From: Halorubrum halophilum
Lineage (GTDB): Archaea; Halobacteriota; Halobacteria; Halobacteriales; Haloferacaceae
Direction: 5' to 3'
NCBI RefSeq assembly: GCF_000739595.1
Contig: NZ_BBJP01000081.1
Span: forward strand, 62,001 to 126,000
Length of the DNA stretch: 64,000 bases
The notes beneath the pieces are model-generated. The model was not told the DNA's origin. It worked only from the letters and a program-made list of their open reading frames with translations, and ran no database searches. Made by a program: the position numbers and the translations under genes. This document shows, piece after piece, positions 13,944-49,923 of the stretch. Every line of letters begins with the position of its first letter. Within the stretch, counting starts at the first letter, position 1.

Positions 13944-16900
13944 ATGACAACCGAGGACGCCGAGCGTTCGCCCCTCTCGCCCGACGAGACGGCGGGATCG
14001 CCGGCGTCCGATCGCCCGGCTTCAGACCGCCCCGACCGCCCAGATCGCCCGGTTTCGGTGGGTCGCTGCTCGTGGCGATCGTTCCTCCGTGACCGCGGCC
14101 GCGGCGGCGACGCGACCGATCTGTACGCCGACATCGGCGAGGAGCCGATCCTCCCGGCGACCGCCGTCGACGCCCACTTCGAGGAGGGCGTCGACCGGGT
14201 GGTCCGCGCCGCCGGCGTCGACGAGCCGTACGAGGCCGACGGCGACACGGCCGTTCCGGGACACGGGACGCCCGAGGCGGGCACCCTCGTGATCGGTCCC
14301 GACCACGTCGTTCTCAGCGGTGCGGCCGTCGTGCCGGCCGGGAATTCAACTGCGGCGGCGACTCTCGAACCCGAGGCGGAGTCGGGTGACGGATCGGAAG
14401 CCGACGACGAGCGAGACGGCAGTGAGGAAGGCGTCGGCGAGGGCGATGACGAGTCGTCCGGCGAATCTCCCAGCGAACCGACCGACGAACCGGCTGGCGA
14501 ACCGACAGCGAGCGAGCCTGCGGAACCGGACGAGCCGGAAGCTCGTCCCGGCATCGCGGTTGACAGCCCGGGCGTCTCCGGTGTCGTGGTCGCCGCGAGC
14601 GCCGACGTGGAGTCGGTGCCGCGCCGCGCGCCGACCGACGAGGAGTGGGACCGGATCGGCGTCGATCCGAGCGAGTTCCTCGGCTTCGACCCCTTGGAGA
14701 CCGAGTACCGCGTCGGGGCGGCCGCGGCGGTCGGAGACGTTCTCTGGGACCTGTGTGCGGCCCGGTACGACCCCTACTCGGTCCCGGTGCTCAAGGGGTA
14801 CTACACGTGGGACGACTACCGGGACGAGTACTTCCTCGACGAGGAGGGGAACCCGCCGACCGAGGAGAACGAGGAGGGGGAAGCGGCGCCGCTGGAGTTC
14901 ACCCACGAAGACAAGACGGAGGCGCTGGGATTCGACCCCGACCAAACCGAGGGCCTGCTGGGGGCGGGCGGGAGCGCCGCGGCCGACCTCGCGGAGCTGG
15001 TCGACGAGCGCACGGTCGACGTGAACCCGGAGGTCGACGAGGACGCCTTCTTCTCGACGGACGAGGGCGACACCACGCTCGCGAACCGGTACGACCTAGA
15101 GAAGGCGGTGCCGATGCCGAAGAAGCAGCACTTCCGCGAGATCGAGCGCTACTGGGTGAACAAGCCGTACGCGTTCGTGATCGTGTTCCGGTCGAGGAAG
15201 GAGAACGAGGTGAAGTACTACGCGGTTCAGCCGCACCGGACGGAGATCGAGACCGACCTGGTCGAGTTCCTCACCGGGAAACTCCGGACCTCGATCAAGT
15301 ACGCCGACGAGTCGATCGCGGGCGGCGACGAGGCGTTCCGCGAGGGCGTGATCGTCGACGAGACGCTGACGCTGCTCGACCGGTACGACCTCTACGAGCG
15401 CGAGGACGACGACCGGGGGCCCATCGACGATCTCGTGGACGACCTCGTCGACCGGTTCGGCTTCGATCTCACCGAGGGCATCGCGCACCGGATCACCGAG
15501 TCGCTCGGATACGAGCCGCCGACCGGGTCGGACTCGGAGTCAGTGCCGGCGAAGGTACTCGCCCGTCCCGAGCCCGCGGTGATCGCGGAGGACCCGGAGA
15601 CGCTCTCGGAGCATCAGGTCGAGAAGCTGCTGTACTACCTCAAGCGAGACTTCATCGGCTACGAGCGCATCGACCCGATCAAGTACGACATCAACGTCGA
15701 GGACATCTCCTGTGACGGGTACAACTCTCCCGTCTTCGTCTACCACTCCGACTACGAGCAGATCATCACCAACGTCTACCACGGGACCGACGAGCTCGAC
15801 GACTTCGTCGTGAAGCTCGCGCAGCGCTCGGGAAAGGGGATCTCGAAGCGCCGCCCGCAGGTGGACGCCACCCTCCCGGACGGCTCCCGCGCCCAGCTCA
15901 CGCTCGGCCGCGAGGTGTCCGACCACGGGACCAACTACACGATCCGGCAGTTCAACGACGTGCCGTTCACGCCGATCGACCTGATCAACTGGAAGACGTT
16001 CTCGCTCGACGAGATGGCCTTCCTCTGGCTCTCGATCGAGAACCACAAGAGCCTGATCTTCGCGGGCGGCACCGCCTCCGGGAAGACGACGAGCCTGAAC
16101 GCGGTCTCCCTTTTTATTCCCTCGAACGCGAAGATCGTCTCCATCGAGGACACCCGCGAGGTGGAGCTTCCCCAACGCAACTGGATCGCCTCCGTCACGC
16201 GCCCCTCCTTCTCCGACGACGACAAGGGCGACATCGACGAGTTCGACTTACTGGAGGCCGCGCTCCGCCAGCGCCCGGACTACATCGTGATGGGCGAGAT
16301 CCGCGGCGAGGAGGGACGGACGGCCTTCCAGGTGATGTCCACGGGTCACACCACCTACACCACGTTCCACGCCGACTCGGTCGGCGAGGTGCTCAAGCGG
16401 TTCACCACCGACCCGATCAACGTCTCGAAGACGATGTTCACCGCCCTCGACCTGGTCTCCGTCCAGACCTCCACGCGGGTGCAGGGCAAGAAGGTGCGCC
16501 GGAACAAGTCGCTGACAGAGATCAACCACTACGACGCCGAGAACGACGAGATCAACGTCCAAGACGTGTTCCAGTGGCAGGCGGAGACCGACGAGTTCCT
16601 CCAGATGGGCGACTCGAACACCTTGGAGGACATCATGTTCGACCGCGGGTGGAGCCGCGAGACGCTGAACGACGAGCTCCAGAAGCGCCGCGTCGTGTTG
16701 GCGTACCTCATCGACCGCGGACTCAACAGCTACGCGCAGGTGGCGGCGACGTTCCAGGCGTTTATCAACGACCCGGAGACGGTGCTCGCGCTGATGGCGA
16801 ACGAGGAGTTAGAGCGGTCGCTGGAGGACCTCCGCGAGATGGAGTCGGTCCTGATCAACGTCGACCGCGACAAAGAGAAGATGGTGCCGCGACCGGACCC

Positions 16901-17660
16901 CGACGAGGACGGCCGCGAGGAGGTCGAGGAGATCCTGGCCGAGGCCGAGGACCTGTTCGCGGAGTACCGCGGCCGGATGCCCGACTCGGTCGCCGACGCC
17001 CTCCTCGACGTCGCGCCCGCTCGCGACGTGGAGGCGGAGCCCGGGGCCGACCGCGAGGCGCTCGCGCAGACGGCGGACGAGGCCGCGGCCCTCGACGCGG
17101 AAGTCCCGACCGAGTCGGAGTCGGGCGAGACTGACAGTGCCGCCGAGATCGACGGGATCGGCGGCGTCGACGATCCCGACGAGGTGGGGGTCGTCGCGGA
17201 CGCGACACCGACCAACGGGGAGTTCGGAGCCGGTCCGGCGACGGCGGACGGGTTCTCCGACGGGGGCGACGCGGACGACGCCGGTGACGCGGGAGGCGTT
17301 GTGACTCCGGACGAGAGCGACACGGCGGCCGCGGACGAGAGAGGCGACACGGCCGACACGAACAACGCGGGCGGCGGTATCGACTTCGACGAGCCGTTCG
17401 ACGAGGGGATCGACGTGCTCGACTCGGACCCGACTCCGGATTCGGAACCGGCAACGAGCTCGCGACGCGCCGATTCCGGCGCCAGGGCAGACGTCGACGG
17501 CGGAGAGATCGGAACCGAGGCCGGAGCGGAGGACGCGGCCGAGGGCGACGAGGCCGGTGACGGCTCTGCCGAGAGCGAGGCCGAAGACGCCGACGAAAGC
17601 GATACCGACGACACCGACGGCTGGGGCTTCGACTCCGTCGAATCCCGGGAGGACCGGTGA
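13944..17660 (+). CDS. pilB: type IV pilus assembly ATPase PilB (archaeal GspE family)
   Basis: A 1238-aa cytoplasmic hexameric ATPase that drives pilin extrusion. The catalytic core (about 390-960) contains Walker A GGTASGKTTSLN (about 706-717), an Asp-box-like VSIEDTREVELPQ, Walker B region YIVMGEIRGEE (about 777-787) and the His-box THFH-like TGHTTYTTFHADS. The core is flanked by long acidic low-complexity arms: an Asp/Glu/Ser-rich N-terminal stretch (about 130-220) and a C-terminal Asp/Glu/Ala tail from about 1000. Archaeal PilB proteins are usually much shorter, near 550-900 aa. ATG 13944 was chosen because it starts the MTTEDAERSP reading. The gene heads the pilB-pilC-pilin operon. Confidence 0.92.
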   Translation: MTTEDAERSPLSPDETAGSPASDRPASDRPDRPDRPVSVGRCSWRSFLRDRGRGGDATDLYADIGEEPILPATAVDAHFEEGVDRVVRAAGVDEPYEADGDTAVPGHGTPEAGTLVIGPDHVVLSGAAVVPAGNSTAAATLEPEAESGDGSEADDERDGSEEGVGEGDDESSGESPSEPTDEPAGEPTASEPAEPDEPEARPGIAVDSPGVSGVVVAASADVESVPRRAPTDEEWDRIGVDPSEFLGFDPLETEYRVGAAAAVGDVLWDLCAARYDPYSVPVLKGYYTWDDYRDEYFLDEEGNPPTEENEEGEAAPLEFTHEDKTEALGFDPDQTEGLLGAGGSAAADLAELVDERTVDVNPEVDEDAFFSTDEGDTTLANRYDLEKAVPMPKKQHFREIERYWVNKPYAFVIVFRSRKENEVKYYAVQPHRTEIETDLVEFLTGKLRTSIKYADESIAGGDEAFREGVIVDETLTLLDRYDLYEREDDDRGPIDDLVDDLVDRFGFDLTEGIAHRITESLGYEPPTGSDSESVPAKVLARPEPAVIAEDPETLSEHQVEKLLYYLKRDFIGYERIDPIKYDINVEDISCDGYNSPVFVYHSDYEQIITNVYHGTDELDDFVVKLAQRSGKGISKRRPQVDATLPDGSRAQLTLGREVSDHGTNYTIRQFNDVPFTPIDLINWKTFSLDEMAFLWLSIENHKSLIFAGGTASGKTTSLNAVSLFIPSNAKIVSIEDTREVELPQRNWIASVTRPSFSDDDKGDIDEFDLLEAALRQRPDYIVMGEIRGEEGRTAFQVMSTGHTTYTTFHADSVGEVLKRFTTDPINVSKTMFTALDLVSVQTSTRVQGKKVRRNKSLTEINHYDAENDEINVQDVFQWQAETDEFLQMGDSNTLEDIMFDRGWSRETLNDELQKRRVVLAYLIDRGLNSYAQVAATFQAFINDPETVLALMANEELERSLEDLREMESVLINVDRDKEKMVPRPDPDEDGREEVEEILAEAEDLFAEYRGRMPDSVADALLDVAPARDVEAEPGADREALAQTADEAAALDAEVPTESESGETDSAAEIDGIGGVDDPDEVGVVADATPTNGEFGAGPATADGFSDGGDADDAGDAGGVVTPDESDTAAADERGDTADTNNAGGGIDFDEPFDEGIDVLDSDPTPDSEPATSSRRADSGARADVDGGEIGTEAGAEDAAEGDEAGDGSAESEAEDADESDTDDTDGWGFDSVESREDR

Positions 17661-17682
17661 TGGTCCGAACGAGGTGGGTCGC

Positions 17683-19719
17683 GTGAGCCTCGACACGGGC
17701 GTCGGCGACGGCTCCGTCGACGGGAACCTCCTCGCGGAGCTGTTCTACCCGGTCTTCGAGCTGCTCTTCGACGCCGACGGCGACTTCGTCGGCGACGTGG
17801 AACGCAAGCTCGCGGAGGCGCGCATGCCGGACCAGGTGGAGATGTACGTCTCCCGAGCGCTCGGGGTCGGCCTGCTCGTGGGCGGGACCCTCTGGGCGCT
17901 CGGAACCCTGACCGGCTACGGCGTGTTCTCGCTCGGGCTGATCGATCCCGACGCGCTCTCGCTCGGGATGCCCGCGCCCACGCCGGCAGTCCGGGAGTTC
18001 CTGCGGTCGCTCGTCGTGCCCGCCGCGGTCCTCGTCAGCGGGCTCGTGTTCGGCTCGCTCGGGTTCGCGATCGGCTTCGGGGGCGTGGTCGCGATCCCTT
18101 ATTCGCGGGCGTCGGCGCGGGAACGCGAGATCAACCTCCTCCTCGCGGACTCGGTGTCGTTCATGTACGCGCTGTCGGTCGGCGGGCTCAACCAGCTTGA
18201 GATCCTGCGCTCGATGGCGACGGCGGAAGACACCTACGGCGAGGTGTCCCGCGAGTTCCAGAGCATCGTCAACGAGACGGAGTACTTCGGTACCGACTAC
18301 CGGAACGCGATCCGCCAGCAGTCGATGGAGACCCCCTCCGACGAGCTCTCGCAGTTCCTCGCGGACATGCTCTCCATCGTCAACTCCGGCGGCGACATGG
18401 AGAGCTTCCTGAAGGACAAAAAGGAGAAACATCTCCGCACGTCGAAACAGGAGCGCGAGATGACGTTGGAGACGCTGGAGCTGTTCGGCGAGATGTACAT
18501 GACGCTGTCGCTGTTCCCGCTCCTCCTCATCATCATCCTCGTCATCATGGGGATGATGGGCGAGTCCGACGAGCGTCTGCTGTACGCGACCGTCTACGCC
18601 CTCATCCCGCTGACCGGCGTCGGCTTCCTCGTGCTCGTCTCCACCGTCAAGCAGGACGAGCCCGGAGACGGCTACCTCCGTCCCGACGGCGGCAGCGATC
18701 GGCTCCGGCAGACGAGCAAAGAGGGGCTGCTTCACTTCGGGCTGATCGAGGCGTTCGTAGGTCGGTTCGGCGTCTTCGACCGGATCCGCGACCGCGAGGG
18801 GACGTACAAGACCAAGCAGATCGTCTCCGCGCCGCACCTGTTTCTCCGGGACAACCCGCTGTACACGCTCGCGTTGACCGTTCCGGCCGCGCTCGTCATC
18901 GTCGGCGTCGCGGTCGGCTCGGGGAACGCGCCGACGACCTTCGACGGGTGGGTTGACCGTCCGGTGTGGTCGACGTTCATCTGGGTGTACCTCCCCGCAT
19001 ACCTCGTGTTGACGCCGCTCGCGGTGTTCCACGAGTGGAGCCAGCGGTCCAAGCGGGCGATCACGGGAAAGCTCTCGGAGAGCCTGCGGAAGCTCTCCTC
19101 AGCGAACGACACCGGACAGACCCTGCTCGAATCGGTGGAGACGGTCTCGGAGACGTCGAGCGGGAAGCTCGCCGAGGAGTTCGAGGTGGTCCACGAGAAG
19201 GTGAACTATGGGATGAGCCTGCGGGACGCTTTGGTGGAGTTCAACAACAAGTACGCGGTCCCTCGGCTCGCTCGGACGGTGAAACTCATCTCGGAGGCGC
19301 AGGAGGCCTCCTCGCAGATCACGGACGTGTTGACAACGGCGGCGCAGGCCTCCGAGAACCAGGACGACATCGAGCGCAATCGGATCTCTCAGACCCGGAT
19401 GCAGGTGGCGATCATCGTGATGACGTACGTCACCCTGCTCGGCGTGATGGCGATCCTTCAGACCCAGTTCATCGACGTGATGGGCGGGCTCTCCTCGCAG
19501 GCCGACGGCGGCGGTGCAGGGGGCGGCGCCGGCTTCGGGGGCGGCGGCGGCGTCGATCCAGAGGTGCTCTCGCTGCTGTTCTTCCACGCCGTGACGCTGC
19601 AGGCGGTCCTCTCCGGGTTCATCAGCGGGTACATCCGGAACGCCGACATCATCTCCGGCGTCAAGTTCGCCGTGGTCCTGATGACGCTCGCGCTGGGGGT
19701 GTGGATCTATGTGGGATGA
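17683..19719 (+). CDS. pilC: type IV pilus platform protein PilC (TadC/GspF family)
   Basis: A 678-aa inner-membrane platform protein that works with PilB. It contains two T2SSF domains, each with a cytoplasmic helical bundle followed by membrane helices: the first around residues 130-330 (VSFMYALSVGG), the second around 440-620 (LSSANDTGQTLLESV). A Gly-rich linker (GGGAGGGAGFGGGGG) precedes the last helices, and about eight hydrophobic segments are visible. ATG codons are absent near the 5' end, so GTG 17683 is preferred (GTG 17674 is possible), 22 nt after the pilB stop. The 3' end overlaps the next gene by 11 nt. Confidence 0.92.
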   Translation: MSLDTGVGDGSVDGNLLAELFYPVFELLFDADGDFVGDVERKLAEARMPDQVEMYVSRALGVGLLVGGTLWALGTLTGYGVFSLGLIDPDALSLGMPAPTPAVREFLRSLVVPAAVLVSGLVFGSLGFAIGFGGVVAIPYSRASAREREINLLLADSVSFMYALSVGGLNQLEILRSMATAEDTYGEVSREFQSIVNETEYFGTDYRNAIRQQSMETPSDELSQFLADMLSIVNSGGDMESFLKDKKEKHLRTSKQEREMTLETLELFGEMYMTLSLFPLLLIIILVIMGMMGESDERLLYATVYALIPLTGVGFLVLVSTVKQDEPGDGYLRPDGGSDRLRQTSKEGLLHFGLIEAFVGRFGVFDRIRDREGTYKTKQIVSAPHLFLRDNPLYTLALTVPAALVIVGVAVGSGNAPTTFDGWVDRPVWSTFIWVYLPAYLVLTPLAVFHEWSQRSKRAITGKLSESLRKLSSANDTGQTLLESVETVSETSSGKLAEEFEVVHEKVNYGMSLRDALVEFNNKYAVPRLARTVKLISEAQEASSQITDVLTTAAQASENQDDIERNRISQTRMQVAIIVMTYVTLLGVMAILQTQFIDVMGGLSSQADGGGAGGGAGFGGGGGVDPEVLSLLFFHAVTLQAVLSGFISGYIRNADIISGVKFAVVLMTLALGVWIYVG

Positions 19720-20248
19720 GGAGTCCCGGGCGCAGACTCCGATCGACTTCGCGGTCGGCGCGGGCGTGTTCCTGTTGACGCTCGCGTTCGTGATCGCCTT
19801 CGTTCCGACGCTCTTCGACCCGTTCTCCGTGGCTGAGACGGCCTCGCCGCTGGTGAGCGACCGCGTCGCGGCCGGCGTCGCCGGCGATCTGCTCGCGGCG
19901 TCGCCCGCGGAACCGGGCGTGTTGTCGCCGGCCTGTACGGTCGCCTTCTTCGAATCGGACGCGGCGCTCGGGAGCGACGCCGACTGTCATCCCGCCGTCG
20001 CCGAGAGCCCGGCGACCCACTTCGGGATCGACGGCGACGTGCAGGTGGTGATCCACGCCCCCGACGAGCGAAACCCGAGCACGAGTGCGTCGAATCTCTC
20101 GATCACGACGCGTCACGGACAGTTCGACGTGGAGCCCAACCGAACTACCGCCGATCCCGCCGACGCGGCCGCCGAAGACGTCACCGTCTCACAGCGACTC
20201 GTCTCGATCGACGGGACGCAGTACCGGCTCACGGTGCGGGTGTGGTGA
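19709..20248 (+). CDS. pilin-like one-helix surface protein 1 of the pil operon
   Basis: A 179-aa protein with a short charged leader MWDEESRA, then QTPIDF and one hydrophobic helix (about 14-31). This is the layout of a class III (prepilin-like) signal, with an acidic residue five positions after the presumed cleavage before Gln9. The rest is extracellular-type, rich in Asp, Thr and Ser. It has two cysteines about 25 residues apart. It overlaps pilC by 11 nt and is followed 2 nt later by the next gene, so co-translation is likely. A minor-pilin role is inferred from context. Similar haloarchaeal proteins carry only DUF names. Confidence 0.75.
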   Translation: MWDEESRAQTPIDFAVGAGVFLLTLAFVIAFVPTLFDPFSVAETASPLVSDRVAAGVAGDLLAASPAEPGVLSPACTVAFFESDAALGSDADCHPAVAESPATHFGIDGDVQVVIHAPDERNPSTSASNLSITTRHGQFDVEPNRTTADPADAAAEDVTVSQRLVSIDGTQYRLTVRVW

Positions 20249-20250
20249 CC

Positions 20251-20883
20251 ATGAACTCGATCAACGACGGAAACGACCGCGCGCAGGCGCACACCCTTGA
20301 GGCGTTCGCGGCCGCGATCCTGCTCGTCGCGGGGCTCACGTTCGCTCTCCAGGCGACGGCCGTAACGCCGCTTTCGGCCAGCACGTCGAATCAGCACATC
20401 GAGAACCAACAGCGCGCGCTCGCGGGCGATCTGCTCGCGACGAGCGCCGAGAACGGCGACCTCGAGGCGGCGCTGCTCTACTGGGACCCCGACGGCGGAG
20501 ACGGCAACGGGACGTTCGTCGGAACCGGAGCGTCCGGGGCATACACCGGGGGAGGACCACCGAACACCTTCGGTGAGACGTTGAACCAAACGTTTCTCGA
20601 TCGGACGATCGCGTTCAACGTGGTGATCTATCACGGCGAGCGCAACGAGAACCGGACACGGATGGTCAACATGGGGTCGCCGAGCGACAACGCCGTGACA
20701 GCCACACGGTCGGTCGGGCTCCCAGACGGCGCGAACCTGACTGCCCCCGGCCATCGGGACACGACGCTCCGTCGGCTGGCGGACGACACCGATCCCGGCG
20801 CGTTCTACGTCGAAGACGACGTCGTCGCGGACACCGCGATGTACGACTACGTGGAGGTGAGGATCGTCGTATGGCGGATGTGA
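20251..20883 (+). CDS. pilin-like one-helix surface protein 2 of the pil operon
   Basis: A 210-aa protein with leader MNSINDGNDRA, then QAHTLEAF and a hydrophobic helix (about 18-35). A glutamate sits near the start of the helix, as in type IV pilins. The exposed remainder contains several N-x-S/T sequons (for example NGT, NQT, NRT, NLT), suggesting N-glycosylation. ATG 20251 is preferred over two in-frame GTG codons just upstream, because those overlap the previous stop. The 3' end overlaps the next gene by 13 nt. The role as a minor pilin is an inference. Confidence 0.75.
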   Translation: MNSINDGNDRAQAHTLEAFAAAILLVAGLTFALQATAVTPLSASTSNQHIENQQRALAGDLLATSAENGDLEAALLYWDPDGGDGNGTFVGTGASGAYTGGGPPNTFGETLNQTFLDRTIAFNVVIYHGERNENRTRMVNMGSPSDNAVTATRSVGLPDGANLTAPGHRDTTLRRLADDTDPGAFYVEDDVVADTAMYDYVEVRIVVWRM

Positions 20884-21881
20884 GTCCACCACCCCGTGAC
20901 GGCGACGAGACGGGGACGACTGCGGAGCGCCCCCGCGACGAGCGCCGCCGTGATGCGGACCGCTTCCGCGACGCGGATCGGGGTCAGCTCCTGTTGGTCG
21001 CCGGGCTGGTCATGGCCGTCTCGCTGGTGACGCTCGTGGTCCTGTTGAACGCGAGCATCTACAGCGAGAACCTCGCGACGCGCGGCGTTGAGGCCGCCGA
21101 CGGTGAGCCTCTTGAGTTCAGGGCGTCCGCTGTCGATGGAACCGGCGCCTTGATCGACGCGACGAACCGGCGACGGTTCGGTGACTACGACACGACATCG
21201 AACGAGGTCGAACGCGGTGTCGACGACCTCGATCGACGGCTCGGACGGTCGTCGGCGAGACGCGGCGGCGTCTCTCACCTCGACCTGACCGGAGATAAAC
21301 TCCGAGAGGGCAGATACGTCACGGGGACGGTGAACGACTCGGCCGCGATCCATGACGTGGAGCGGATGCGAGCGTTCGATATCGCGATCGACGAGTCGTC
21401 GCTCTCGAATGCGAACGCGTCAACCGCTTCGGAGACGGCCGCCACTGTCGTCTTCAACCGAACCGGAGCGAACACGACCCACGAGGTGTACGTGTACGCA
21501 CCGATTGACGGGTCCGCCGCCGCGATCGCGACCGCAACCAACGGAACGAACGCGACGGAGCGATGTCGACTGGACGCGGTCGACGGCGACCGCCTGCCGA
21601 TCGGTCTCACTGCCGGAACGATAGGCGACAAGCCGTGTCCCGGGATCTGGCCGTCGGACCTACGCGGGGAGACAGACGCGTACGACATCGAGTTCGAGAA
21701 CACCGACGGTACCGACACCGAGATGACCGCGACCGCGCTCACGACGATGGATCCGGTTGGTCCGCTGGCCGACGGGTCGACGCCGGCCGTGTACGACGCC
21801 ACGCTTCGCCTTCGATACCGGACCGCAGATATCCGGTTCGACACGACCGTTCGGGTCGCGCCGGGTGAGCCGAATGAGTGA
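20871..21881 (+). CDS. pilin-like one-helix surface protein 3 of the pil operon
   Basis: A 336-aa protein, the largest of the five. A long Arg/Asp-rich cytoplasmic leader (about 40 residues) ends in DRG, followed by QLLLVAGLVMAVSLVTLVV, a single helix (about 41-62). The large outside domain is rich in Asp, Thr and Ala and holds several N-x-T sequons plus two cysteines that could pair. In bacterial type II secretion the corresponding large minor pilin is GspK; that parallel is only positional. ATG 20871 overlaps the preceding gene, and the stop overlaps the following ATG by 8 nt. Confidence 0.72.
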   Translation: MADVSPPPRDGDETGTTAERPRDERRRDADRFRDADRGQLLLVAGLVMAVSLVTLVVLLNASIYSENLATRGVEAADGEPLEFRASAVDGTGALIDATNRRRFGDYDTTSNEVERGVDDLDRRLGRSSARRGGVSHLDLTGDKLREGRYVTGTVNDSAAIHDVERMRAFDIAIDESSLSNANASTASETAATVVFNRTGANTTHEVYVYAPIDGSAAAIATATNGTNATERCRLDAVDGDRLPIGLTAGTIGDKPCPGIWPSDLRGETDAYDIEFENTDGTDTEMTATALTTMDPVGPLADGSTPAVYDATLRLRYRTADIRFDTTVRVAPGEPNE

Positions 21882-22425
21882 CGCGGACGCCGCGGTCGAC
21901 GACCGCCCCGTTTCGGACGGATCGTCGGAGGCCGGCGGTCGAGTACCGCTCGTCGCCGACGAGCGTGGCGTGAGCGTCACCGTCGGCTACGTGTTGACGC
22001 TCGCGATCGGCGCGCTGTTGCTCTCCGGAGTCGTCATCGCCGTCGGCGGCGTGATCGACGGACAGACGCAACGGACCGTCGAGAGCGAGCTGTCCGTTGC
22101 CGGCCAGATCGCCGTCGCGAACGTGGAAAGCGCCGATCGGTTCGCGCGCGCGGCAGAGGCCGACCGGCCGGAAAGCGAGGGAACGGTGAACGTCGTCGTC
22201 GAGGCTGACCTCCCGAGTCGGGTCGCGGGGAGGGGGTACCGAATCGAGATCGACTCTGAGACTGTCCTGGTCCGGACAGATCGTCCAGACGTACGGGTCG
22301 AGATTCCGCACGCCGCGACCAGGAACGTGACGGAGACGACCGTTCGCGGCGGGCCGATCCGGATCAGCTACACCCTCGCCGACGGGAATTCCGGACCGGG
22401 GACGATAGAGGTGACAGAGCGGTGA
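21874..22425 (+). CDS. pilin-like one-helix surface protein 4 of the pil operon
   Basis: A 183-aa protein with a leader of about 33 residues ending DERG, then VSVTVGYVLTLAIGALLL. The helix resembles the archaeal pilin H-domain (VSxVxGxxL) that drives filament packing. The short exterior domain has no cysteine. Start ATG 21874 lies 8 nt inside the previous gene's end. The gene ends in a GTGA overlap with the next start. Of the five it looks closest, with its downstream neighbour, to true archaeal pilins. Confidence 0.75.
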   Translation: MSDADAAVDDRPVSDGSSEAGGRVPLVADERGVSVTVGYVLTLAIGALLLSGVVIAVGGVIDGQTQRTVESELSVAGQIAVANVESADRFARAAEADRPESEGTVNVVVEADLPSRVAGRGYRIEIDSETVLVRTDRPDVRVEIPHAATRNVTETTVRGGPIRISYTLADGNSGPGTIEVTER

Positions 22426-23231
22426 GCGACCGAGACAATCGAGACGACCGGTGCCCGACGATCGCGATCGCCGACGGTGACCTCGGTTCGATCGCTGCCG
22501 ATGACCGCGGTGTGAGCAACGTCGTGGGGTACGTTCTCGTGTTCTCGCTCATCATCGTGACGATCGGAACGGTGTTTACGGTCGGACTCGCGGGGGTGGA
22601 GGACAGACAGGAGGCGGCGCGCGTCACGAACGTCGAGAGGGCGTTTGACGTGTTCGACGACAACATCCGCGACATCCAGCGGTACGGCGATCCCAGTCGA
22701 TCGACGGAAGTCAGGCTGAACGGCGGGAGGCTCGTTGTCGCTGACCCGACGACAGTGCGGGTGGAAAACAGTAGCGGGGGAACGGTAACGGAGCCGATCA
22801 CCACCAGCCCGCTCGAGTACACGAACGGGGACACGACAATCGCCTACGAGGCGGGCGCACTGTTCCGGAGCGACTCGGGGAGGTCGACGATGCTGTCTAC
22901 ACCCCGCTTCGTCGCCGCGGACGGCAGGACGGTGCTCCCGTTGGTTCGGCTGTTCCGGGACACTGAGGCCGCGTCTGCTGGCGGCACAAGCACCGTCCAG
23001 ATTGAGGCGCAAACGCCGAACGACGGCAGCTTGGGCCGATTCAACGCCACGGACGATCCGCACAGGGTTTCGGTCGAGTCCCCCCGAGCGGCGGCATGGG
23101 GGAGATACTTCGAGCGCACCGACGGGTTCGACGAGGTCACCGCCAACGAGACCGTCGCGAGCGCGACGCTCACCGAGAATGAGACGGTATACGTCCGCCG
23201 GATCGCGATCGATATCACGTTGCGAGAGTGA
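22422..23231 (+). CDS. pilin-like one-helix surface protein 5 of the pil operon
   Basis: A 269-aa protein starting at GTG 22422, which overlaps the previous stop (GTGA). The leader of about 29 residues ends DDRG, followed by VSNVVGYVLVFSLIIVTIG, an archaeal-pilin-like hydrophobic domain. The exterior region (about 60-269) is rich in Thr, Val and Asp with NSS, NAT and NET sequons. It is the last gene of the operon. The 67-nt gap before tfs contains a separate promoter. Confidence 0.75.
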   Translation: MSDRDNRDDRCPTIAIADGDLGSIAADDRGVSNVVGYVLVFSLIIVTIGTVFTVGLAGVEDRQEAARVTNVERAFDVFDDNIRDIQRYGDPSRSTEVRLNGGRLVVADPTTVRVENSSGGTVTEPITTSPLEYTNGDTTIAYEAGALFRSDSGRSTMLSTPRFVAADGRTVLPLVRLFRDTEAASAGGTSTVQIEAQTPNDGSLGRFNATDDPHRVSVESPRAAAWGRYFERTDGFDEVTANETVASATLTENETVYVRRIAIDITLRE

Positions 23232-23298: not shown

Positions 23299-23619
23299 AT
23301 GAAGTTCTGCGACGAGTGCGGATCGATGATGAAGTCCGGCGAGGGCGAGGACCACTGGGTATGCGGCTCCTGCGGCTACGAGATCGGCCGCGAGGAGGAG
23401 GACGATCAGTGGACCACCGAGTCGCAGGTGGAGTCGGAGATCGTCGACGTGAGCGACGCGGAGGACAAGGGGCTCCCGAAGACGACGGCCCACTGTCCGG
23501 AGTGCGGGAACGACCGCGCGTACTGGTACATGCAGCAGATCCGCTCGGCCGACGAGTCGGAGACCCGCTTTTTCGTCTGCACCGAATGCGAGCACAAGTG
23601 GCGCGAAGACGACCACTGA
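23299..23619 (+). CDS. tfs: transcription elongation factor TFS (TFIIS/Rpb9-like)
   Basis: A 106-aa archaeal transcript-cleavage factor that rescues backtracked RNA polymerase. The N-terminal zinc ribbon uses Cys4, Cys7, Cys22 and Cys25 (CDECG, CGSCG). The C-terminal ribbon uses CPECGN and CTECEH. The RSADE segment at its tip supplies the acidic Asp-Glu pair that reaches the polymerase active site. Length and motif order match archaeal TFS. The TATA box just upstream fixes this start rather than in-frame codons further upstream, which overlap the pilin gene. Confidence 0.96.
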   Translation: MKFCDECGSMMKSGEGEDHWVCGSCGYEIGREEEDDQWTTESQVESEIVDVSDAEDKGLPKTTAHCPECGNDRAYWYMQQIRSADESETRFFVCTECEHKWREDDH

Positions 23620-31901: not shown

Positions 31902-32171
31902 TTAGCGATGCGATTCGATTTTGATCATTGGGTTTCCGCTCGTATCGGCAGTGATGGTAGCTGTCGTGGTATCTGCCTCAAACTGGAGCGTCATCTTGAG
32001 ATTCCGTTCCTGAAAGAGTCCATCAAGTGCGTCCGTGTTAATGTCGTCACTGATGACCCACTTTTGAGCGATTACATCCTCGTCGTGAGCCTTCGCAATC
32101 GCCGTTACGACTGCTGTACTTAGCTGTTCGCCCTCATCTGGCTCGTAGTAAAATTCACGTGTGTTTCCCAC
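31902..32171 (-). CDS. stand-alone HalOD1 output-domain protein
   Basis: An 89-aa protein consisting of one HalOD1 (halobacterial output domain 1) unit: an N-terminal helix LSTAVVTAIAKAH, then DDINTDALDGLF and a beta hairpin ending in an acidic segment. HalOD1 usually occurs fused to receiver or PAS modules, so the single-domain form implies a partner protein. It is divergent from the second HalOD1 gene, with 112 nt between their starts. Composition is AT-richer than the genome average, indicating transfer or weak selection. Confidence 0.65.
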   Translation of the reverse strand: MGNTREFYYEPDEGEQLSTAVVTAIAKAHDEDVIAQKWVISDDINTDALDGLFQERNLKMTLQFEADTTTATITADTSGNPMIKIESHR

Positions 32172-32283
32172 CCATACAGATTAGATGTTAACAGAATAAT
32201 ACTTCCTATTATAAATCGTGACTTTAATCGTATTGAATAGTATGTTGCTTATTACCATGTGAGGAGATCTCGATTGTAGTTAC

Positions 32284-32580
32284 ATGAGAACGTCTTCAGA
32301 GGAACCCCTTGTGAGTATCACTGAGGCTGTTTCCGACGCGTTGAACACGCCAATGGAAAAGTTACCTCCACTCTCTCAGTCAATTGACCTTGATGGATTA
32401 GTGGAAATTGTTACGGAGAATCGATCCCATGATGTGACGGTAACATTTTCTTACGCTGGTCACAGAGTTCTCGTTCACTCAGACGACACCGTCTATGTTC
32501 GCCCGATTCAGAACGACAACATAGGCCGATTGAACACGGTGTATTTTGACAAGGAGCAACCACGCAAAGGACACAACTAA
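32284..32580 (+). CDS. second stand-alone HalOD1 output-domain protein
   Basis: A 98-aa protein of HalOD1 type: SITEAVSDALNTPMEKLPPL, then SIDLDGLVEIV, and a beta strand region VTFSYAGHRVLVHSDD-TVYV. It shares the helix-hairpin layout with the neighbour at 31902, but sequence identity is low, so these are not a recent duplication. The region upstream of its ATG (32210-32283) is AT-rich. It probably acts as a signalling output module, but no target can be named. Confidence 0.68.
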   Translation: MRTSSEEPLVSITEAVSDALNTPMEKLPPLSQSIDLDGLVEIVTENRSHDVTVTFSYAGHRVLVHSDDTVYVRPIQNDNIGRLNTVYFDKEQPRKGHN

Positions 32581-32815
32581 TTACTTGTCACCACTGACCG
32601 ACCACTCCCTCCCGTAGACTGTCCTCGGTTTGTGTCCATTCGCGCTCTGTATCTTGCACGGCTATCGCAACTTTTCTCTGAGCTGGTAACATTCTCGGTA
32701 GTCAATACGCACTCCTCAGCGATCAGCTGTTTCAGATGAGAACGTATCTGAAGAATATGAGTTCAACAAAGCCTCTGTGTTGATTTTTGACTGAGAGGAG
32801 ACTGAGCACCCGTTT

Positions 32816-33403
32816 TCAGCTGAACACTCCGTCTATCTTTTCCGTGGAAAACTCGGGGTACGGCTCGCCGTTCGGCCCCCATAGGTTGATCTCCTCCCGT
32901 AGGTCGTCGAACCGCTCCGTCAGCGCGGTGTATTCCGAACTGGCTTCCATTTCCGGGAGGGTCATCATCGATTCGAGTGTCGCCATTTTCGAGACGGTGG
33001 CGACGATCTCTCGCATCGTCTCGTCGTATGACGCGCGGACGAGCATCCGAGAGACGGCGTCTCGAATGTCTTCGCGGGAGACCGGTTTGACGAGGTAATC
33101 GTCGAACGGGAGGTCAAGGATGTCCGTTCCGGGAGAGATCGCCGTCACCATAACGACCCGACAGTCGATCTCGCGTTCCCGGATCGTCGCTAACACGTCG
33201 TCACCGGACATCCCCGGCATGCGCCGATCGAGCAAGACGACGGCGACGTCCGAACTCAGCGTCTCCAGTGCTTCCGCTCCGGAGTACGCCGTCAAAACCG
33301 TGTAGTCTTCGGCTAAAAATTCCGAATACAGATCCACTTCGTCGGGCTGATCGTCGACGATTAGGACAGTCTGGCGTTCATGAGTATCTATCGATTCACC
33401 CAT
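32816..33403 (-). CDS. response regulator with HalX domain
   Basis: A 195-aa protein with an N-terminal receiver (about 11-123). The acidic pocket is Asp17/Asp18, the phospho-acceptor is Asp59 in LLDRRMPG, and the conserved lysine sits in VKPVS. The C-terminal part (about 125-195) is the HalX domain, a haloarchaeal alpha-helical output module of unknown function ending in a coiled tail. It has no DNA-binding domain. Its kinase is not adjacent; the membrane histidine kinase at 25324 is the only kinase in the window. It lies at the right edge of the AT-richer island. Confidence 0.85.
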   Translation of the reverse strand: MGESIDTHERQTVLIVDDQPDEVDLYSEFLAEDYTVLTAYSGAEALETLSSDVAVVLLDRRMPGMSGDDVLATIREREIDCRVVMVTAISPGTDILDLPFDDYLVKPVSREDIRDAVSRMLVRASYDETMREIVATVSKMATLESMMTLPEMEASSEYTALTERFDDLREEINLWGPNGEPYPEFSTEKIDGVFS

Positions 33404-33624
33404 ATTAGTACACTATCTCCGAGAGCGGATAAGTATTCCTAGAATATCCAATTAAATTTATTGTCTCGTTCTTTCAGTCGTTTCCGTACGCCTCACGACC
33501 CTCCTGACTGACAACGAGAAACCCACTGGACGACCGGTCCGTGGTCTCCTGGACCGACCGATCGTAGCCAAAGAACCGAAAAGCGACGGTCGGAGCGTGT
33601 CTCCGTCGACCGCCAGCCGTCGCG

Positions 33625-34428
33625 TTACTCCTCGCCGTCGGTCTCGTCGGCGTCCGCGTCGCCGGACTCGGCGTCGGCGCCCGCCTCGTCCTCCTCGTTC
33701 GGGAGCAGATCGCGGTCGGCGAGGATCGCCTCGATCTCGTCGGCCGATCGCTCCGTGTACTCCTCGTCGTCGACCGTGATTGTGGCGACGCCGACGCCGT
33801 CGGGCGTCAGCTCGCCGTCGTTCGACTGCGCGAGGGTGTCGAGCGCGAGCCCGACCGCCTCGTCGACCGAGAGGCCCTCCTCGTACTCCTCTTCGAGGTA
33901 GTCGCGGAGGTCGCTCCGGTCGGAGCCGATCGACAGCGCCTGCCACTCGTAGGGGGTGCCGGACGGGTCGGTCTCGAACAGGCGCGGCTCGCCGTCCTCG
34001 ATGCCGCCGACGATCAGCGCGACGCCGAAGGGGCGCGCGCCGCCAACCTGCGTGTACTGCTGGATGTGGTCGGTGATGTTCTTGGTGAGCGTCTCGATGC
34101 CGATCGCCTCTCCGTAGCGCAGGCGGTTCACCTGCGCCTGTCGGCGCGCGAAGTCGATGAGCTGGCGGGCGTCGGCGACGTGGCCCGCGCTCGCGACGCC
34201 GACGTGGTCGTCGGCCTTGTGCAGCTTCTCGATGCTCTCCGGCTCCATCAGCGAGGACCGGGCGCGCTTGTCCGCCGCGAGGACGACGCCGTCCTCGGCG
34301 CGGACGCCGACGCTTGCGGTCCCGCGTTTCACCGCCTCCCGGGCGTACTCGACCTGGTAGAGCCTGCCGTCGGGAGAGAAGATAGTGATTCCTCGGTCGT
34401 ACGCCTGCTGTTGGGATTGGCCCTGCAT
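33625..34428 (-). CDS. psmA: proteasome subunit alpha
   Basis: A 267-aa structural alpha subunit that forms the outer rings of the 20S proteasome. The N-terminal gate reads YDRGITIFSPDGRLYQ, followed by VEYAREAVKRG, the family signature. The internal ADKRARSS and later DPSGTPYEW blocks are in place. A C-terminal extension rich in Asp, Glu and Ala (about 240-267) is typical of haloarchaea. ATG 34428 gives the standard N-terminus; the frame continues upstream but overlaps rnp2. The gene ends the rnp3-methyltransferase-rnp2-psmA operon. Confidence 0.97.
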   Translation of the reverse strand: MQGQSQQQAYDRGITIFSPDGRLYQVEYAREAVKRGTASVGVRAEDGVVLAADKRARSSLMEPESIEKLHKADDHVGVASAGHVADARQLIDFARRQAQVNRLRYGEAIGIETLTKNITDHIQQYTQVGGARPFGVALIVGGIEDGEPRLFETDPSGTPYEWQALSIGSDRSDLRDYLEEEYEEGLSVDEAVGLALDTLAQSNDGELTPDGVGVATITVDDEEYTERSADEIEAILADRDLLPNEEDEAGADAESGDADADETDGEE

Positions 34429-45836: not shown

Positions 45837-48023
45837 TCACAACGTGTCGATGACGAGGAAGGTGGCGAGCGTCAACAGCAACAGGACGACGACGTGTTTC
45901 ACGCCGTCTTTGACCGATCCCTCCCCGAGCTGCCCGGCGACGAGCCCGGAGCAGACCGCCTGTATCGCGGCGGCGTGGAAGAACAGCTGCTCGTAGGCGC
46001 CCGCTTCGATGTCGCCGAGCCCCTCCGTGATCCCCGAGGAGCCGCCCGGCGCACCGGGGAGGTCGCTGGCACCGGTTCCGGTACCCGAACTGGGGATCGC
46101 CGCCTCCTCGATCGCGGGGATGAACGACACCGACAGCGAGGCGATGATCCCCAAGAAGACGAGGAAGGAGATATAGATCACGATGAGGTACGTCAACATT
46201 ACCTGCCGGCGCTCCCGGCGGAGCGACCACGTCGCGCGCGCCTCGTCGGCCGCGATCCGGAGCACGGGGCCGATGTCGCCGCTGGCGCGCATCGCGTTCG
46301 TGATGAGCGCGACCGCCCGCGAGGTCATCGGCGACCGGACGCGCCGCTCCAGTCGCCGGAGCGCGGTGCTCACGTCGGCCCCCCAGTCGATGTCGCGCCG
46401 AGTGCGCCGCAGGTCGTCCGTGAGCGCCTCCAAGTTCGAGTCCGCGACCCGCCGGACGCTCCCGACCACGGAGGTGCCCGCCTCGTTGACGCTGGCGAGC
46501 CGGTCGAGGAAGTCCGGGACCGCCGACTCGATCCGTCGAACCCGGCGCTTGCGCGCCTCGTAGACGACGGCGTAGCTCGCGAGGACGAGCGCGGTCGCGG
46601 CGACGACCGGCCGCTCGACCTGCGCGACCATCTCGGTCGGCGGGCCGAGGGTGATCGGGAAGGCGGTCACGAGCAGGCCGAGGACCGCGAGCGGCACGGA
46701 CAAGAGGAACACAGTGCGTGGCGCGTCGAGCACGCTCTCGACGGGTGAGGTGACCCACCGCCGCAGCGATCGGATCCCGTCGTACGCCCGGAGGCGCTCG
46801 CGGCTCGTCGCCCAGCGGTCACGCTCGCGGTCGCGGTCGTCCACCGCCGCGCCGCCGTGAGCCTGCGTCCCGCCACCGTGAGCCTGCGCCCCGCCGTCAG
46901 CGGCGACCGCCCCGTCGGCGCCGGCAGCGCCGCCCGCCTCGGCCCCGTCTTCGATCGCCTCCGAGAGGTCGACGGTCTCGGTGCCGCCGACCCCCTGCGT
47001 GACGCTGTCGACGTAGACCACGAACCCGAAGGTCGCCAGCGGCACGCCGAGGTAGACCACGACGCGCAACAGGGGAAGCGTGTCCTCCAACACGAGCCCG
47101 ATCACGACGAGGATGGTGATAAAGAAGAGCGGCCCGGCCACCAGCGCGGTGACGTACGCCTCCGCGAACGTGGAGAGCAGTTCCAGGTACTGCTGCTGTT
47201 TCGCCTCGGCCTCCTCCTGATACAGCTCGTACTGGTCGCTGAGGAACGCCGAGATGGGCTGTCCGGTGCCGAGCACGGACGCGAGGTTCTCCGCGAAGTC
47301 TGCCAGGTCGTCGCTCGGGGTGCGCCGGGAGGTGCGCTGGAGCGCGGTGAGCGCGTCGGTGCCGAAGGCGTTCATGTCGCGGACGGCGACCGACAGCTCC
47401 GTCGCCGCCTCGCCGTACACCGCCTCGTTCTCCGCGAGGGTGTCCATCACGCGGGGGAACGGCATCCCCGATCGCGAGAGCGCGTACATGAACGCGACGG
47501 TGCGCGGGAGGGTGGCGTCGATCTCCGCCCCCCGGGCGTGAGCGCGCTGGTCGAGCAGCTCCCACCGGCCGTAGTACATCCCGATCGCGAGCGCGGAGCC
47601 GAGCGTCGCCGACGCCAGCGTCAACAGCAGGAACAGCTGTGGGAGTCCGAGTTCCGTGAGCCGGGTCACCCCCGCGACGAATCCGAGCGACGCGGGGAGC
47701 GTCTCCCGCAGGGTCGCCTCGCTCACGTCGAGCGCCGAGAGGAGGCCGGCCGCGACGTACACGCCGACGACGCTGCCGGCGACGCCGAGCACGCCCGCGT
47801 ACAGGAGCGTCTTGGCGGCGTACGTCCGGTGGGTCCCGGCGATGTGCGCGGCGCGCATCAGGTCGCGCTGTCGCCGTCTCCGGGGGCCGTCCTCGGCGAC
47901 GTAGTCGCCGAAGATCAACAGCGCGATCCGAGTGACGACCAGGTCGGCCCCGTCGTCGACCGCGGGCAGGAGCAGCGCCAGACAGCACCCGACCGCGGCG
48001 AGCAGGGGGAGGTACGCGATCAT
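45837..48023 (-). CDS. pilC: second PilC-like platform protein
   Basis: A 728-aa GspF/TadC-family protein with two T2SSF domains (about 180-300, VAFMYALSRSG, and about 510-630) and about eight or nine transmembrane helices. A linker of about 90 residues rich in Ala, Gly, Asp and His (including AQAHGGGTQAHGG) separates the halves. It shares a 4-nt ATGA overlap with the upstream PilB gene, so the pair is coupled. It is clearly a paralogue of the protein at 17683 but diverged. Unlike that cluster, no pilin-like genes follow. Confidence 0.9.
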   Translation of the reverse strand: MIAYLPLLAAVGCCLALLLPAVDDGADLVVTRIALLIFGDYVAEDGPRRRRQRDLMRAAHIAGTHRTYAAKTLLYAGVLGVAGSVVGVYVAAGLLSALDVSEATLRETLPASLGFVAGVTRLTELGLPQLFLLLTLASATLGSALAIGMYYGRWELLDQRAHARGAEIDATLPRTVAFMYALSRSGMPFPRVMDTLAENEAVYGEAATELSVAVRDMNAFGTDALTALQRTSRRTPSDDLADFAENLASVLGTGQPISAFLSDQYELYQEEAEAKQQQYLELLSTFAEAYVTALVAGPLFFITILVVIGLVLEDTLPLLRVVVYLGVPLATFGFVVYVDSVTQGVGGTETVDLSEAIEDGAEAGGAAGADGAVAADGGAQAHGGGTQAHGGAAVDDRDRERDRWATSRERLRAYDGIRSLRRWVTSPVESVLDAPRTVFLLSVPLAVLGLLVTAFPITLGPPTEMVAQVERPVVAATALVLASYAVVYEARKRRVRRIESAVPDFLDRLASVNEAGTSVVGSVRRVADSNLEALTDDLRRTRRDIDWGADVSTALRRLERRVRSPMTSRAVALITNAMRASGDIGPVLRIAADEARATWSLRRERRQVMLTYLIVIYISFLVFLGIIASLSVSFIPAIEEAAIPSSGTGTGASDLPGAPGGSSGITEGLGDIEAGAYEQLFFHAAAIQAVCSGLVAGQLGEGSVKDGVKHVVVLLLLTLATFLVIDTL

Positions 48024-49714
48024 CGGTCGCCGGCGTCCATCTCGGTGCGAGTGCCCGGCTCGCTCGGTTCGGCCTCACCCCCGCTCTGTTCGTCGTCCGC
48101 GCCGTCGCTCCGCGCTTCGAGCCGATCCATCACGCGCTCGGGATCGGCGTAGTACTCGTTGACGAGGCCGGTGAACGCCCGGTAGTCGGTGACGCCGAGC
48201 CCGCGGAGCAGTTCGAGGAAGCGCTCGCGGCGCCGGACCTCGCGGAGCAGCTCCGACCGCGACCAGCCGCGCTCGTCCGCGATCTCCTCCATGAGCGACG
48301 AGTCGTTCCGGGTGAACTCGTCGGTCTCGGCGTCCCACTCGAACGCGGAGGAGTAGTCGAGCTCTCCGGTCCGCTGGTCGATCCCGCCGATCTCGCCGAT
48401 CGTCTTCGCGCGCCGGACGCGCTGGTCGCCGGAGCGAGTGAGCGTCTGGATCGACAGCATGTCGAGCGACTGGACCATCGCGCGGGGCACGTTGATCGGC
48501 TCGTTCTCCAGCCGGTTGATCACCGTCTCGATCGAGTCGGCGTGCATCGTCGAGAAGGTGGTGTGGCCCGTGTTCATCGCCTGGAACAGGGTGATCGCCT
48601 CCTCCCCGCGGACTTCCCCGACCACGATGTACTCGGGGCGGTGGCGCAGCGCGGAGCGGAGCAGATCGTACATGTCGATGTCGGCGCCCTCGTAGCGTCG
48701 CTCGCGGGTGACCGAGGAGAGCCAGTTGTCGTGGTAGAGGGACAGCTCGCGGGTATCCTCGATGGTGAGTATCTTCGCTCGCGGCGGCACGAACATCGAC
48801 ACCGCGTTCATCGAGGTGGTCTTCCCGGAGGCGGTGCCGCCCGCGAAGATGAGGCTCTTGTTGTGCTCGATACAGAGCCAGAAGTACGCCATCTGTGCGA
48901 CCGAGAACGTGCCGTACTCGATCAGGTCGATCGGCGTGAACGGGTCCTCGGCGTACTGCCGGATCGTGAACGCGGAGCCGCGCGGCGTCACCTCCTCTCC
49001 GAGCGCGAGCTCCGCGCGCGACCCGTCCGGCAGGGTCGTCTCCACCATGGGGTCCCCGACGGAGACGTGGCGCCCGGACTGCTGGGCGAGCCGGATCACG
49101 TAGTTGTCGAGCGCGGACTTCTCGAACGAGACGTTGGTCTCGATGTCGGTGTAGTCGTCGTGGTAGACGAAGATCGGGAGGTCATAGCCGTCACACGAGA
49201 TGTCCTCGATGTGACGGTCGTTGAGGAGCGGATCGACCTTCCCGTAGCCGCGGAAGTCGCGGTAGAGGTAGTACGAGATCGCGTGGAACGTGTCCATGCC
49301 GACGTCGACGCCGTACCCCTCCAACAGCGACTCAAGCTCCGTCCGGAGGGTCTCCTCGTCGGTCCGGCCGGTTCCCTCGCGGTACAAAAGCGGGTCCCGG
49401 ATGTCGTCGACCACGCGGTCGAGGAGGCCGCGCTCGAACCGATCCAGATCCGGCTCGACCGCGTAGTATCTGTGTTCGCTCTCCGCGTCGTCGTAGGTGA
49501 TCACGACGTACGCGTACGGCGCGTTCACCCAGTACCGGTCGACCTCGCGCTCGCCGTCGGGGACCGCGAAGGCGGCGATCGGGCCGTCTCGGTCCGGTCG
49601 GAAGGGCCGAACGTCGAGGTCGGTCCCTCGAAGCACCTCCCACGTTCGCGAGAGCCGCCGCCGGAGGGCCTCGATGCGGTCTCCGGCGTCGTCGTCGCGA
49701 GCGTCACTCGCCAT
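48020..49714 (-). CDS. pilB: second PilB-like type IV pilus ATPase
   Basis: A 564-aa ATPase with the same core as the protein at 13944: N-terminal ERYWVN-like DRYWVNAPYAYVVI (about 68-83), Walker A GGTASGKTTSMN (about 294-305), the Asp-box LTIEDTRELSL, and Walker B region YIVVGEVRGEEA. It lacks the long acidic arms of the first copy and has the usual archaeal length. ATG 49714 (MASDARDDD) was chosen because upstream codons overlap the divergent gene's promoter. It starts the pilB-pilC pair. Confidence 0.92.
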   Translation of the reverse strand: MASDARDDDAGDRIEALRRRLSRTWEVLRGTDLDVRPFRPDRDGPIAAFAVPDGEREVDRYWVNAPYAYVVITYDDAESEHRYYAVEPDLDRFERGLLDRVVDDIRDPLLYREGTGRTDEETLRTELESLLEGYGVDVGMDTFHAISYYLYRDFRGYGKVDPLLNDRHIEDISCDGYDLPIFVYHDDYTDIETNVSFEKSALDNYVIRLAQQSGRHVSVGDPMVETTLPDGSRAELALGEEVTPRGSAFTIRQYAEDPFTPIDLIEYGTFSVAQMAYFWLCIEHNKSLIFAGGTASGKTTSMNAVSMFVPPRAKILTIEDTRELSLYHDNWLSSVTRERRYEGADIDMYDLLRSALRHRPEYIVVGEVRGEEAITLFQAMNTGHTTFSTMHADSIETVINRLENEPINVPRAMVQSLDMLSIQTLTRSGDQRVRRAKTIGEIGGIDQRTGELDYSSAFEWDAETDEFTRNDSSLMEEIADERGWSRSELLREVRRRERFLELLRGLGVTDYRAFTGLVNEYYADPERVMDRLEARSDGADDEQSGGEAEPSEPGTRTEMDAGDR

Positions 49715-49923
49715 CGTCGTTACGGGGCGGTATGCGCCGTGGCGGTTTAAAGTCCACTCGGTGATTATCAGCGGCGACATCGGGGCCGTCGTCGGCTCTG
49801 GTCGCCGTCGATAGGCTCGTCGCTCTCATGCGCGGCGACGCCGACGGCTCTGGCGGCTCTCGCACTCGACGGGGATCCGCCCGTTACGTTCATACGGGAC
49901 GACCGCAAAGGATTGGACAGGAA

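Follow-up and report, generated by a model that had tools for sequence, protein, structure and literature searches.

A conserved set of five predicted prepilins behind a PilB4-type pilB-pilC pair in Halorubrum halophilum

Described pilus systems and the Halorubrum locus

The PilB4-type locus, represented in Haloferax volcanii by HVO_1160, was outlined by Makarova (2016; PMC4858521) as that of the clade 2 type IV pili of the euryarchaea. According to this outline it has a predicted major pilin of its own, distantly related to PilA, and is unlikely to depend on PilA; all of its pilins, in the proposal made there, may be structural parts of the filament. In their review, Pohlschroder and Esquivel suggested that PilB4-PilC4 build a structure out of two pilins that are rather large and regulated together (PMC4371748). 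Other papers report that GMM was the only growth medium in which PilB4 protein was detected (PMC7305310) and that expression of pilB4-pilC4 drops during HFTV1 infection of Haloferax gibbonsii (PMC12542753). Here we analyse a locus of this kind in Halorubrum halophilum. It lies in a stretch of 64,000 nucleotides of contig NZ_BBJP01000081.1 (the window, whose own numbering we use throughout), where five consecutive genes of the + strand, labelled A to E, occupy positions 19709-23231 directly 3′ of a pilB-pilC pair, just as an earlier note, made from the letters of this DNA, had read them. Their products are very probably prepilins belonging to the PilB4-PilC4 locus for type IV pili already known from haloarchaea.

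The resemblance to the H. volcanii locus is one of layout: a pilB with extra N- and C-terminal parts (its open frame here has 1267 amino acids, against 601 and 558 for the genome's two best-scoring other T2SSE frames) comes first, then pilC, then the locus's own pilin set, which is the mark of the PilB4 type. One type of pilin in the H. volcanii locus is duplicated, as far as the outline describes it, with a variable length of about 250-550 amino acids, as is E here. The proteins A to E are not a new protein class. What the present work adds is an ancient, detachable five-gene module, with its depth, its order and the subunit-specific positions of its acids; the order of the five genes, the acid positions and a comparison of leaders do not figure in Makarova's outline of the PilB4 type. 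Control searches gave matches in H. volcanii to the models of DUF7287, DUF7288, DUF7266 and DUF7289, and the literature within the search, outside which lay preprints and most subscription journals, held no paper that deals with the five genes or names any of their five families or neighbouring HVO numbers beyond HVO_1160. The haloarchaeal pilins PilA1-6, which go with PilB3-PilC3, are also comparable: D and E share a PilA-like helix with them, and the same peptidase, PibD, presumably serves both systems. PilB3 loci, by contrast, carry no pilins.

The genes of the locus are these, with the predicted cut given for each prepilin:

pilB, 13944..17660, + strand: secretion ATPase of the PilB4 type with long N- and C-terminal extensions (T2SSE, E 5.7e-32)
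pilC, 17674..19719, + strand: platform protein of the T2SSF family (PF00482, E 4.1e-26, in two stretches)
Pilin gene A, 19709..20248, + strand: DUF7287 (PF23958, E 9.4e-43); predicted cut after RA, 19732/19733
Pilin gene B, 20242..20883, + strand: DUF7288 (PF23959, E 6.7e-61); predicted cut after RA, 20283/20284
Pilin gene C, 20871..21881, + strand: DUF7261 (PF23922, E 2.3e-12); predicted cut after RG, 20984/20985; the largest subunit
Pilin gene D, 21874..22425, + strand: DUF7266 (PF23928, E 1.1e-24, product read from 21877); predicted cut after RG, 21969/21970
Pilin gene E, 22422..23231, + strand: DUF7289 (PF23960, E 5.6e-63); predicted cut after RG, 22511/22512

For each of the five the match lies above the curated cut-off of its Pfam model. 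NCBIfam has no model for A to E, the nearest being one sub-threshold row for E, and Pilin_N falls below its cut-off on the window's E (E 0.0014). For pilB the start at ATG 13944 is preferred to TTG 13902; that of pilC may be 17674 or 17683; gene D most likely begins at ATG 21874, the longest open reading frame starting at 21757. The overlaps amount to 11 bases for pilC/A, 7 for A/B (or a gap of 2 bases if B starts at ATG 20251), 13 for B/C, 8 for C/D and 4 for D/E, so that the earlier count of four junctions out of five that overlap or abut was too low: all five do.

Cleavage site, helix and leaders

The families were followed in a sample of 116 genomes of the class and in another of 196 genomes of the phylum. 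DUF7288, the family of B, is present in 111 of the 116 class genomes and in 43 of 45 genera. Our haloarchaeal set has 59 loci with 62 modules, made of 56 hand-picked DUF7288 places, of L041 and L042 (the only loci returned by the scan of genome contigs with E) and of the window; nearly all of these loci were chosen for their B, so that only the counts for A, C, D and E are results. A is found in 62 modules, C in 58, D in 61 and E in 62. The complete order A-B-C-D-E appears in 57 of the 62, C being not found in four where the rest are present, and D in one. In 48 of the 62 modules pilB-pilC directly precede the set.

Archaeal prepilins, as the review describes them, have G, A or S at position -1 of the cleavage site and a charge at -2 (PMC4371748). 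All five genes of the window show this: each encodes one hydrophobic helix, placed immediately after RA (A and B) or RG (C, D and E), with Q at +1 in A, B and C, and V in D and E, which is how the earlier note had described them. It had also seen an acid near helix position five in two genes, and these are D at +5 in A and E at +6 in B; the start of the C helix has none. The motif VSxVxGYVL, which had been ascribed to two genes, fits gene E only, the corresponding residues of gene D being VSVTVGYVL.

Across the haloarchaeal set the [KR][GA] site occurs in 61/62 members of A, 61/62 of B, 58/58 of C, 59/61 of D and 62/62 of E, that is 301/305 altogether, counts that lean towards the motif because the matrix used to set the frames contained the site itself and because members of A were re-picked on the Q/D motif. 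Q at +1 is constant in A (62/62), B (62/62) and C (58/58), as are D at +5 in A (62/62) and E at +6 in B (62/62), while E has D or E at +3 in 54/62; here the values for A must be read with its mode of selection, partly on Q+1 and D+5 (61/62 members by the motif rule, and that of L047 by eye). Outside the class the frames were placed by the mature residues +1 to +16, the leader not being scored. G or A then stands at -1 in 99/100 genes of 20 complete sets, which were picked by a profile itself built from haloarchaeal members, and which, being related and in some cases tandem copies, do not count as independent events. The single exception is gene D in set two of L123, whose frame (score 1.5) seems wrongly placed. 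Residue -2 is often uncharged in these sets, unlike in haloarchaea. The mature start is kept: Q+1 and D+5 in A (20/20), Q+1 and E+6 in B (20/20), E or D at +3 in E (18/20). An early acid is thus a family trait at +5 only in A, at +6 in B and at +3 in most E; C and D have none. That A to E are prepilins is well supported at the level of sequence, because the site is conserved, because the genes follow pilB-pilC in most modules and because they match the features given in the review; conservation of the site strongly suggests that their products would be cleaved as pilins are.

Leaders of about 30-40 residues had been taken by the earlier note as the possible sign of an unusual prepilin class. 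In the window this length holds for C (38 residues from ATG 20871, 35 from GTG 20880), D (32) and E (30), and not for A, with 8, or B, with 14 from GTG 20242 or 11 from ATG 20251. Medians of the shortest possible leader in the haloarchaeal families are 13 residues for A, 7 for B, 11 for C, 10 for D and 12 for E, and leaders of at least 25 residues are found in 9/62, 2/62, 3/58, 6/61 and 6/62 members, respectively. The leader length seen in C, D and E is a local trait of the window, and the idea of a separate class falls with these medians of 7-13; elsewhere in the same genome, the leader of the E-like class III protein of L112 has 7 residues.

No prepilin peptidase lies in the window, again as first read. 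The genome has a single Peptidase_A24 match, on another contig (C95:39233-39616), and next comes a sub-threshold Arc_PepC_II match, whose open frame is equal in length. Given this one match elsewhere, the absence is no puzzle; most archaea, in the account of the review, express one such peptidase for all their prepilins (PMC4371748).

The five genes as one unit

In the phylum sample 109/196 genomes match the B profile; among the weaker matches, many cover the first 50-80 residues only. Seventeen of the better-scoring places outside the class were examined, and at 16 of them A-B-C-D-E is complete and in order, the seventeenth lacking a match for C; they hold 20 sets in all. We take it from the make-up of the phylum that methanogens are among these genomes, an assumption for which a DUF7289 match of Methanosarcina acetivorans, in a control search, was also used. 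A scan of viruses with B gave no match.

The set is duplicated as a block: two A-E sets stand in tandem at 4/17 of the loci outside the class (L115, L121, L123 and L130), and the haloarchaeal loci L085 and L090 have two sets a few kb apart. It is also found away from its motor. In 14 of the 62 haloarchaeal modules the set is not directly preceded by pilB-pilC, so that the five genes move together without the motor. Outside the class no pilB match occurs in the examined stretch at 15/17 loci, and in L125 and L128 pilB-pilC are on the opposite strand. None of the 6 genomes in which B is missing or matched below threshold has A. One sub-threshold DUF7288 match (G066:C14:102697-103104, L133) lies inside a frame of 1241 amino acids with no module around it.

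Co-variation points the same way. In 44 complete operons the distance matrices of A to E correlate with one another at 0.72-0.85 and with those of PilB and PilC at 0.46-0.62; the mutual values are 0.63-0.76 after PilB has been regressed out, all of these being plain values, taken without a significance test, of distances that share their phylogeny. The mean divergence of A to E is 0.64-0.75, about twice that of PilB and PilC (0.34-0.37).

Some members lead a life of their own. G010 and G018 are without A and B, yet in both of them DUF7266 and DUF7289 match strongly at adjacent places, so that another system, too, makes use of D- and E-type pilins. E in particular is found in 149/196 phylum genomes, in length-variable copies, and behaves like arCOG02911, which together with arCOG03926 is expected at a PilB4-type locus. 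In 26/62 haloarchaeal modules a convergent E-like gene lies no more than 2.5 kb from E, and outside the class such a gene is usually in line after E; this paralogue is possibly a sixth part of the system. A long E-like paralogue is that of L112 already mentioned (G000:C82:82387-83061), with a frame of 485 amino acids.

Other pilus genes of the Halorubrum genome are laid out differently. Seven stand-alone pilins of the PilA family pass the Pilin_N cut-off outside the module. A second pilB-pilC pair (586 and 728 amino acids) occupies 45837-49780 of the window on the - strand, resembles the PilB3-PilC3 type and has no pilins behind it; the genes found there are, presumably, methyltransferase-like and chemoreceptor-like. 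A third pair, on contig C74 (L103), is followed by carboxylase-like genes, not by pilins.

Predicted folds and place in the filament

Since site, gene order and acids are conserved and the five vary together, we infer the following scheme, to which we give somewhat better than even chances: A to E would be five type IV prepilins of the PilB4-PilC4 machine, inherited together as minor pilins whose part is to prime the filament or to form its tip. For each of them, the hydrophobic helix would serve for insertion, and the single PibD encoded elsewhere would make the cut after RA or RG; PilB4, judging from its family, would drive the assembly that PilC4 would seat. The set may then start and cap the tip as a heteromer, in the manner of the bacterial H-I-J-K sets, the order of subunits being fixed in part by where the lone acid falls along the buried helix: at +5 in A (D), at +6 in B (E) and at +3 in E (D or E), with no such acid in C or D. 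The largest and most variable subunit, C, might present its beta-sandwich head outwards for adhesion, while the shaft would be made of D or of the stand-alone PilA-family pilins. Tip location, priming and adhesion are the weaker parts of the scheme.

The comG and gsp operons of bacteria have the same gene order, with ATPase, platform and five pilins. In the reviewed cases the type II secretion system (T2SS) and Com each combine a single ATPase and a single platform with one major pilin and four minor ones, and bacterial minor pilins form a tip complex where assembly starts (PMC10191384). It is this match of A to E, ATPase and platform with the T2SS and Com parts list that suggests a role in priming the tip. 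The same list would also suit a pseudopilus, short and devoted to secretion or to taking up DNA, with no part in adhesion. We hold this improbable, however: no gene for a secretion substrate or a DNA-uptake partner turned up beside the module, in analyses that were not aimed at such genes, and Com and T2SS are bacterial families to whose pilins A to E have no sequence match. The likeness to H-I-J-K, of type IVa pili and T2SS, and to ComGD-G is that several co-conserved pilins go with one ATPase and one platform; by contrast no sequence relationship was seen, the tip location is here a proposal, and the rule for Glu5 differs. A bacterial cap, in that account, is the subunit that lacks Glu5 (PMC10191384), the others having it, whereas in our set A alone has an acid at +5 as a family trait. 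Acid near +5 had also raised the idea that A and B are kin to TadE/TadF, which gave no match: the TadE model is not among the families listed (E up to 5) for 45 members of A and 45 of B, a negative compatible with distant kinship since HMMER filters most matches above 0.1.

Kinship within the set is uneven. D and E are linked by their profiles through 53 columns in the helix region (74%, E 2.7e-5), and A and B are weakly linked (58%); no link appears for A-C, C-E or B-E. Pilin_N is matched weakly by 6/42 members of D and 12/41 of E. These matches would also fit a complete filament made of the five pilins, with one of them as major subunit (D, small and PilA-like, being the best candidate), the others as minor parts of shaft or tip, and PilA in trans unused. 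Makarova's own major pilin, independent of PilA (PMC4858521), and the two large pilins in the suggestion of Pohlschroder and Esquivel (PMC4371748) speak for it too. Against it, a supply of PilA in trans is almost always possible, because Pilin_N matches occur in 108/109 of the phylum-sample genomes that have a B match (the exception, G142, is 78% complete), and D is one of five overlapping genes in an operon, with nothing seen that would raise its dose. We regard this arrangement as a serious but rather unlikely alternative.

The AlphaFold2 model of B (mean predicted local distance difference test, pLDDT, 91.6) has helices 2-26 and 30-56 in line, then a sheet with four main strands; that of C (mean pLDDT 92.7) has helices 2-62 and 68-92, then a beta-sandwich. 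Foldseek against the PDB returned no match at E <=0.001 for either model. Searches of PDB sequences with the five profiles found no pilin, and their best rows (a designed protein at E 0.005, catenin at 0.017) we read as chance. VIA rows for B are mostly those of a ribosomal protein, with Z up to 5.4, which we put down to a common arrangement. That solved pilins are missing from the Foldseek and VIA lists does not prove that the folds differ. Pilin-like proteins can also be anchors, as ArlF and ArlG are in the archaellum, and some of the five might accordingly be held in the membrane and not be subunits of a filament; no known pilin is a strong match for A, B or C in sequence, and the predicted fold of B has no clear match in the PDB. 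An uncut anchor, though, needs no cleavage site, and the site and +1 residue of A to C are kept as strictly as in D and E, so that we give anchors very little credit.

For C, the best structural neighbours of the head are galectins and, in fructan enzymes, the lectin-like sandwich (VIA Z 8.7 to 7.1, root-mean-square deviation 3.2-6.1 over 113-158 residues). The minor pilin PilC of Streptococcus sanguinis is described as bearing a lectin module that is ConA-like (PMC9934059), and C, a large predicted pilin with a beta-sandwich, is like it in this; it differs in that C has no significant match to lectins, in sequence or by Foldseek, and the resemblance is weak. We take it as a hint, because Z values of this size are often reached by proteins that are not kin. 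In 12/58 members the mature C frame is 58-149 residues long, and in the others mostly 259-330, the head being missing or short in some, and this variation would fit an exchangeable outer head.

Several points weigh against a tip-priming set. Makarova's view, in which all the pilins of the locus are structural and one is its own major pilin, fits equally well (PMC4858521). Two of the five, C and D, lack an early acid, where the bacterial cap alone lacks Glu5. No Foldseek match in the PDB (E <=0.001) lends B or C a pilin-like head, and the lectin-like Z values of C are near the level that a common arrangement reaches by itself. Common descent contributes to the correlations given above. Finally, the motor does not need the module: G044 and G073 (L131 and L132) keep a PilB that is 69% identical over the matched part, without A and B, and one long E-like frame (541 and 650 amino acids, respectively) replaces the module behind pilB-pilC.

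More tentatively still than the tip-priming set, and with the balance tilted against it, A to E might be an independently built archaeal counterpart of the bacterial tip-priming complex. It would be a fixed set of five subunits, older than the split between haloarchaea and the other classes of the phylum, whose places are coded by the register of the acid (+3, +5, +6 or none); it could be duplicated or moved without the motor, and its largest subunit would carry an exchangeable adhesin head. How archaeal pili start, and what their tips are made of, is little known, and the module is a small, genetically tractable target; a role for it would give a function to five Pfam families of unknown function.

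Minor features of the window remain to be listed. A scan with the sigma-70 model, which does not apply to archaea, gave one site where 0.5 were expected. The G+C content is 0.55 at 32001-34000, against 0.63-0.72 elsewhere in the window, possibly a mark of foreign DNA. 3′ of the module, at 23301-23618, a stretch with no Pfam match encodes a small zinc-ribbon protein, which we take to be like transcription factor S.

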